In this document: positions 37,617 to 39,208 of the stretch, piece after piece
Layout of the letters: each line of letters opens with the position of its first letter
Numbering within the stretch: position 1 is the stretch's first letter
NCBI GenBank assembly: GCA_949130485.1
Contig: OX422202.1
Location: 62,001-126,000 of the forward strand
Source: Agelas oroides
Taxonomy: Eukaryota; Porifera; Demospongiae; Agelasida; Agelasidae
Length of the DNA stretch: 64,000 nucleotides
Reading direction: 5' to 3'
The notes under the pieces: model-generated
Told to the model about the DNA's origin: nothing
Databases searched by the model: none
The model's input: the letters and a program-made list of their open reading frames with translations, nothing else
Made by a program: the position numbers and the translations under genes

Positions 37617-39208
37617 ATGGCAGAGGACGAAGATCTGCGCGAGAATCTTGAGCGCTTGGGTTTCTCTCCGGGACCCATCACGGACTCGACGCGGGCTGTG
37701 TACCAGTCTAAACTACGAAGACTCAGCCTCAGCCCGCCTGTGTCCCCTGTACATACCAACAAGGCGATTGAGACCGTGGATGGGGATTGTGGTACGGTCG
37801 ATCTCGAGCAACCGAAAGAGAAAGGAGATGCCTCAAGGAACCGAGGTATGTTACAGCCCCCACGTTTGTTGTCTTGAGTGACAAATACACGCAAAGTGGA
37901 AGCACGCCCACTTTAGAACCTCATGCTATAGCTGTGGCAAACCTGTAAGAGTTTTAATACTTCGTGGACTATCGTGTTTCCATATATGCAGGCCCTCTCC
38001 TTAGGCTGTGGCCATGGCTTTCCATAGACCTGCAGAAGAGGCTGCTAGGCATCCACTTGCGGCATGGAAAGCTCAGTGTCAAGAAGGTGATTGCATCACT
38101 GCGTGGAGCTTCACCAGCCCTTGCCCGCACTGTGGCTCTCATAGGCCAGCACTCTGAAGTTCCAGATAAATCCCACAGCTCTGCACCTGCACTGGAGTCT
38201 GCTGCACTTAAGGTTCCCTCCTCTCGCACAAAATTCAACTGCTCACCCTACGTTCTCCACACCTGTGATGTGCTGCTGGAGAAATATATAATAACTCCTT
38301 CATCCGATGTCAAGGTGTCCTGTGAAGAATTCTTTCTCACATTGGTCGATGCTGGCCCCTCTCCCCTCCTGCTCCAGTGGCAAAAAGATGGTATCACTGC
38401 AGCGAAGATTCAAACACTGTTTAAGCAGAGCATGAGTACCAGGCAGGAGAGCTGTGTATTACCACACAACCCTCCTCCACCCACAGTGCATGTACCCAAC
38501 ACAGCTATGAGTACCGGGCAGGAGAAGGATGTGTTTATCAGCTATAGCAGGGAGGCGGCGGCCACCTCCTTTGTGACCAGACTCAGTGAAGGTCTGCAGG
38601 CTGCAGGGTACAGTGTGTGGGTGGACACTGTAGATATACCCAGTGGGTCAGACTGGCACTTGGCCATTGGAGAGGCCCTGCAGAAGTGCAGGGCACTTAT
38701 TGCGGTCATATCAAAGAAGTACCTCCTCTCCAAGTACTGTAAGAATGAGCTGTTCATGGCTGAGTCTGTCCATAAGCCCATCTTCCCAGTGCTCTTGGAG
38801 GAAGTCGACTTTTCTGGCTCAAGAGAGAGTGCAGGTGTTCTATACACTATCTCTGGCATCAACTGGGTACATGTCAAGGGCCAGTACATGGATGCAGTGC
38901 AGAGACTACTGGAGGGGATGAGAGAAAAGGGAATTAAACCAGGAGCAGACCCATGCCCTAAGCAGGTGGAGGGTACACCTAGCAAACCCCTCAGACAGTG
39001 TTCAGTGGGTGAAGTGTGCAAGTTTGTCTCTCAGCTGGAGATCCAAGTAGATCCATTCCTTGAGAATTCAGTGGGTGGAGAGGAGCTTTTAGAATTGTCT
39101 GACACAGACATGCAAAATGAATTGGGCCTCAGACCTCTGCAGATCAAAAAACTGCGGAAGCACATCAAATCCAGACTAGAACTAGAATCTTCTAAGTCAA
39201 TTATATAA
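37617..39208 (+). CDS. LEM-TIR-SAM protein, putative SARM1-like TIR NADase or adaptor
   Basis: Two exons, 37617-37845 and 37992-39208, joined in phase (G|GC) into about 481 residues. Residues about 5-38 form a LEM domain: [20 protein letters not shown] followed by [10 protein letters not shown], very like LEMD2/MAN1. Residues about 77-250 are helical and unassigned. TIR spans about 252-375: [66 protein letters not shown] and SGINWVHV. Glu329 in CKNELFMA aligns by eye with the SARM1 catalytic Glu (WVHKEIVTA). A SAM domain covers about 412-475 ([18 protein letters not shown] ... [15 protein letters not shown]). No transmembrane segment or signal peptide is evident. NADase activity is inferred; a nuclear-envelope or BAF-linked location is only suggested by LEM. 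It may instead be a scaffold. Confidence 0.88.

Follow-up and report, generated by a model that had tools for sequence, protein, structure and literature searches.

A predicted sponge gene joining LEM, Clp N-terminal-like, TIR and SAM domains

We found a predicted gene in the sponge Agelas oroides whose product combines a LEM domain, a Clp N-terminal-like domain, a TIR domain and a SAM domain. It occupies positions 37617-39208 of a 64,000-nucleotide stretch of contig OX422202.1 (hereafter, the window), which belongs to a 259-Mb genome of 141 contigs. Two exons (37617-37845 and 37992-39208) give one frame of 481 residues, which we call the LEM-TIR-SAM protein. Sequence comparison confirms that one gene encodes the four domains and that their order is kept in relatives. 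LEM domains normally anchor proteins to the DNA-binding protein BAF, and SAM and TIR are known assembly domains. The best explanation is that the gene encodes a soluble signalling or effector protein anchored by BAF, but we propose this tentatively, as it goes beyond the architecture itself. The features of the gene, all on the + strand, are as follows.

37617..37845, +: exon 1, with start codon, LEM domain and linker (sequence; akin to the short LEM frames P0036-P0045)
37626..37724, +: LEM domain, residues 4-36 (Pfam E 2.7e-12; LAP2 in PDB, 4.8e-4)
37846..37991, +: intron of 146 bases, GT...AG (sequence; single-frame relatives match both flanks)
37992..39208, +: exon 2, with Clp-N-like domain, TIR, SAM and stop (sequence, relatives, tblastn)
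37994..38440, +: predicted Clp N-terminal-like domain (model with predicted local distance difference test (pLDDT) 92.9 and predicted template modelling score (pTM) 0.89; fold matches in PDB)
38528..38911, +: TIR domain, residues 256-383 (Pfam)
38747..38749, +: codon of Glu329, aligned with the SARM1 catalytic Glu (alignments; 33 of 33 family proteins)
38984..39187, +: SAM domain (relatives, family profile, model)

The junction of 37845 with 37992 is a predicted splice, so the LEM exon and the TIR-SAM exon might in principle come from separate genes. This is highly improbable. The whole protein as query returned 25 proteins. They include P0002, which is the exon-2 frame of the window itself, and P0026, a weak match (28% identity, with 28% of the query covered) that was excluded from alignments and counts. 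Two of the relatives, P0008 and P0009, hold LEM, middle region, TIR and SAM in a single unbroken frame (51% identity across 98% of the query). When these two were compared with the window by tblastn, the sole matches below E 0.6 were the LEM exon (E 4e-10 and 4e-11) and exon 2 (E 1e-135 and 2e-133), the latter match beginning at 37994, which lies two bases into the exon as predicted. The order LEM, TIR, SAM within one gene, proposed by an earlier sequence-only reading, thus recurs in single-frame relatives, and the splice that it predicted is upheld by matches on both sides.

Further relatives point the same way. Of 30 candidates returned for the LEM exon, 10 are short LEM frames (P0036-P0045), although P0044 more closely resembles the LEM frame of L002 and some of the 10 may lie outside the family. 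In three cases the longest contigs bearing a LEM frame and a TIR exon have the same size: 166262 (P0038, P0006), 170017 (P0042, P0011) and 12390 (P0043, P0014). From these equal sizes we infer that three relatives keep both exons on the same contig. Together with the single-frame relatives, the three pairs make the join more than a splicing guess. In P0003, P0004, P0005 and P0007, the residues ahead of an Ala-Gly are unlike and conservation sets in beyond it; the Ala-Gly is consistent with an AG acceptor. The lack of any ATG in the exon-2 frame ahead of the end of the Clp-N-like domain also speaks against two separate genes. A search of the sponge's own genome with P0009 gave 28 rows, two of which are the exons of the LEM-TIR-SAM gene. 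The other 26, in which some genes appear as two pieces, are confined to P0009 residues 224-411 (TIR and a little around it). Among the best candidates scored, the whole gene therefore has one copy in its genome.

The LEM domain scores above the Pfam curated cut-off (46.5 bits vs 24) and keeps the GPI..TR..Y..KL core. It is identical to each single-frame relative at 23 of 33 residues, to LAP2 at 15 and to emerin at 11. BAF is the known partner of LEM domains, and the same genome encodes one BAF (E 1.9e-43 across 88 of 88 positions), which makes a link between this LEM and BAF more plausible. Alternatively, the LEM could have lost BAF binding and serve as some other contact module, in which case the protein would be an ordinary cytoplasmic TIR-SAM signalling protein. 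We consider this unlikely. GPIT..TR is kept in the query, in both single-frame relatives and in all 10 short LEM frames (not all of which are certain family members), and the query aligns with what we take to be the BAF-type LEM of LAP2. On the other hand, some relatives have no LEM in the frame read, and LAP2 has two LEM-like domains of which, according to a title cited in PMC13144012, one binds DNA rather than BAF.

Six LEM matches occur in the genome: the LEM-TIR-SAM gene, LAP2-like, ANKLE1-like and ANKLE2-like matches, one that is unassigned and a LEM-kinase frame. The last is a single frame of 603 residues (L032:3022-4833; G000:C5:3834021-3835832), in which a LEM domain (E 1.1e-11) is joined to a protein kinase domain (E 1.3e-42 in the 552 residues scanned). 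We found no open-licence paper on a LEM combined with a kinase domain in sponges. Should this frame prove to be a real gene, the lineage has fused LEM to signalling domains on more than one occasion.

The region between LEM and TIR, which had been thought a possible new domain, is indeed a conserved domain, but its predicted fold is not new: it matches Clp N-terminal domains. When the middle domain was modelled alone and compared with PDB, Clp N-domains accounted for all 50 entries listed by VIA-align and 49 of the 50 rows shown by Foldseek, with an overlap of 114-126 of 149 residues. The identity of the PDB chains was taken from their titles, apart from a few that we presumed to be Clp N-domains (the malarial 4xbi and 4irf, SMAX1, ClpT, CrClpP-S1 and ClpC2). 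With the full model, the 50 entries shown are all TIR. By sequence, Clp_N is absent from the families that Pfam lists, at E up to 10, for the 24 family members scanned, the middle-domain profile matched no PDB sequence at E up to 10, and alignment with ClpA and ClpB by hhalign gave E 0.02 with a probability of 2.4%. No internal repeat is visible in the sequence of the domain. The model thus resembles the N-terminal domain of ClpA, ClpB, ClpC, Hsp104 and SMAX1, but unlike Clp proteins, the LEM-TIR-SAM protein has no AAA+ motor in the Pfam scan and no Pfam Clp_N match. Among open-licence papers, TIR domain and ClpN occur together in PMC7159879, which describes ClpN repeats joined to bacterial vWA proteins, and in PMC11007782, on citrus NPR1.

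Pfam assigns the TIR domain clearly (TIR_2, residues 257-383, E 8e-23; TIR, E 8.2e-9). It lists no other enzyme domain in the LEM-TIR-SAM protein. Cleavage of nicotinamide adenine dinucleotide (NAD+) by this TIR is plausible, judging by sequence. Glu329 aligns with the Glu of SARM1 and TIR-1, and this Glu, W.D and F.SY are conserved in 33 of 33 family proteins. The sequence-only reading had correctly placed a Glu at the SARM1 catalytic position, but the possible NADase activity that it drew from this Glu alone was overstated, for the aligned Glu is necessary but not sufficient. The best whole-profile match of the family in PDB is C. elegans TIR-1 (4.7e-8; 8.2e-5 with the TIR stretch alone).

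The chief rival explanation is a non-enzymatic scaffold, in which LEM would direct it to chromatin or to the inner nuclear envelope, and TIR and SAM would only recruit partners, for example the many small TIR proteins of the same genome. We regard it as a serious possibility, and several observations weigh against an enzymatic effector. With the TIR alone, SIGIRR ranks above SARM1, which raises the chances of a scaffold and lowers those of a BAF-anchored effector. The TIR model of P0009 fits NADase and non-NADase TIRs about equally. In addition, many non-enzymatic TIRs of the Toll-like receptor type keep a catalytic-type Glu. Against the scaffold, Cat1 (2.9e-7), which we take to be NAD-cleaving, and AbTIR (4.5e-5), which is named as NAD-cleaving, outrank SIGIRR (1.4e-4) and MyD88 (2.3e-3) with the family profile, and the three conserved motifs noted above also argue for an enzyme. 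Among metazoan TIRs, NADase activity was known only for that of SARM1, according to PMC7075850.

The genome contains 28 TIR_2 matches, the strongest being the LEM-TIR-SAM gene. Another (L027:1119-3761; G000:C4, - strand) is a single frame of 881 residues with two TIR_2 matches, followed by a stretch that, by eye, looks SLOG/LOG-like. Clusters of small TIR frames occur in G000:C8 (~9004000-9643000) and C5 (~9757000-10425000). They are 40-49% identical to the P0009 TIR in the matched parts and have no middle-domain match, and some contain an internal stop.

The C-terminal SAM domain is supported by relatives, a profile and a model. A hidden Markov model search of the translation recovered LEM and TIR above their cut-offs, as the earlier reading would have it, but SAM_1 fell below (E 0.088, 13.6 bits vs 23). 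Among 24 family members at E up to 10, Pfam lists SAM_1 in 10 (best 0.0048) and SAM_2 in seven (best 6.5e-4). A profile built from 10 family SAM stretches has the SARM1 SAM as its best PDB match (8.9e-4, over half of the domain), and neurabin matches over nearly the whole domain (1.5e-3). In the P0009 model, five helices are predicted at the SAM position, with pLDDT 88-96, taken by tens, over residues 431-490.

All 33 proteins found with the middle domain also have TIR; the query itself and the exon-2 frame of the window are counted among them. One comparison (A3) drew on 17 middle regions, at a stage when 24 family proteins had been found, and another (A5) on 28 of the 33 in addition to the stretch from the window, the latter and P0002 being one and the same protein. 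We built a midpoint-rooted tree from the 33 proteins without P0025, a near-copy of P0024; of the 29 inner branches in this 32-protein tree, eight are open. Evidence of LEM appears in six of the 32 rows, three of them by way of equal-sized contigs, and falls in four separate branches (P0008; P0009; P0011 with P0014; P0002 with P0006). The SAM motif is present in 17 of the 32 rows. A clade of 14 (P0016, P0018-P0023, P0027-P0033) has the Clp-N-like domain and TIR with neither LEM nor SAM in frame; most of its members begin M...DPI and most end KWYHK(I/V). Most rows do not allow a LEM in an exon outside the frame read to be distinguished from a separate start. Pattern matches in genome_contigs (25) and viral_contigs (21) yielded no confirmed relative, and these two sets thus gave no sign of a bacterial or viral source.

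The LEM-TIR-SAM protein resembles SARM1 and TIR-1 in having a TIR with a catalytic-type Glu together with a SAM. However, SARM1 has ARM repeats, a SAM ahead of its C-terminal TIR and no LEM, whereas here the SAM follows the TIR, a Clp-N-like domain precedes it and Pfam lists no ARM repeat. The difference in order from SARM1, remarked on earlier, therefore holds. LAP2, emerin, MAN1, LEMD1, LEMD2, ANKLE1 and ANKLE2 share a LEM with the BAF-contact core; to our knowledge, none of these seven mammalian proteins has a SAM or Clp-N domain. In the sections consulted of a 2026 review of the seven genes, the word TIR is absent (PMC13144012).

Bacterial TIR effectors (Thoeris ThsB, TIR-APAZ, SAVED-TIR and Cat1) have a TIR_2-type TIR and match by TIR only. 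Matches to anti-phage TIR families in NCBIfam and PADLOC likewise involve almost only the TIR, those in NCBIfam being far under cut-offs. Sensor parts are not common to these systems and the LEM-TIR-SAM protein, in which sensing would fall to LEM and BAF. Published sponge TIR proteins, which are likewise TIR proteins of an early animal, are of the immunoglobulin-TIR and TIR-DEATH types, and LEM and SAM are absent from the consulted text of PMC12909245. The main text of a TIR survey, as far as consulted, has no LEM (PMC7075850), and a term search of PMC8195603 did not find it either. We found no relevant paper on LEM with TIR in the open-licence literature, where the two terms coincided only in a paper on budding-yeast meiosis, nor one on LEM domain protein evolution that includes Amphimedon. 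TIR signalling and LEM docking are each known, but finding them united, and with a Clp-N-like domain, appears to be new; the novelty originally suggested for LEM-TIR-SAM stands within that literature.

We now note other features of the window, in which Rfam at gathering scores found nothing. A head-to-head neighbour (35864-37483, - strand) has a possible start ~160 bases from that of the LEM-TIR-SAM gene. LRR_6 was detected in two of the three frames scanned, and the N-terminus, MGVGSSSSK, looks to us like a myristoylation signal. A frame of 725 residues (55916-58090, - strand) has three BIR stretches (E 3.3e-52) of the inhibitor-of-apoptosis type. The remaining two are a MutS_V match (40038-40403, - strand, E 4.3e-22), MSH-type by eye, and an M48 peptidase (47498-48223, + strand, E 5e-7), ZMPSTE24/STE24-like by eye.

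If the BAF-anchored effector is correct, LEM would bind BAF, which coats DNA in the cytosol, on chromatin or at the nuclear envelope. A dense BAF-DNA array could then crowd many copies together and so gather TIR and SAM, and the assembled TIR might cleave NAD+ or recruit other TIR proteins. By analogy with Clp N-domains, which hold substrates or adaptors, the Clp-N-like domain may hold a peptide, an adaptor or a resting state. BAF and LEM proteins act in defence against cytoplasmic DNA, according to PMC7378220. A more specific proposal, which we consider rather doubtful, is an effector of death or immunity that senses DNA through its coupling to BAF. BAF would coat misplaced or invading DNA, LEM would recruit the protein, SAM and TIR would polymerise on the array, and TIR would destroy NAD+ or make a signal derived from it, while the Clp-N-like domain would act as a built-in brake or adaptor. 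On this view the LEM-kinase of the same genome would represent a sister branch, with LEM as a transferable module that plugs signalling enzymes into BAF.

The architecture suggests an undescribed way in which TIR signalling could be linked to DNA or to the nuclear envelope. If true, it would bring together two hitherto separate fields: BAF and LEM proteins, which tether DNA at the nuclear envelope and trap it in the cytosol, and TIR proteins, which kill or alarm cells, some through the depletion of NAD+. It would also place a Clp N-terminal-like fold, otherwise found in protease-chaperone machines and some bacterial conflict systems, in an apparent animal TIR protein.
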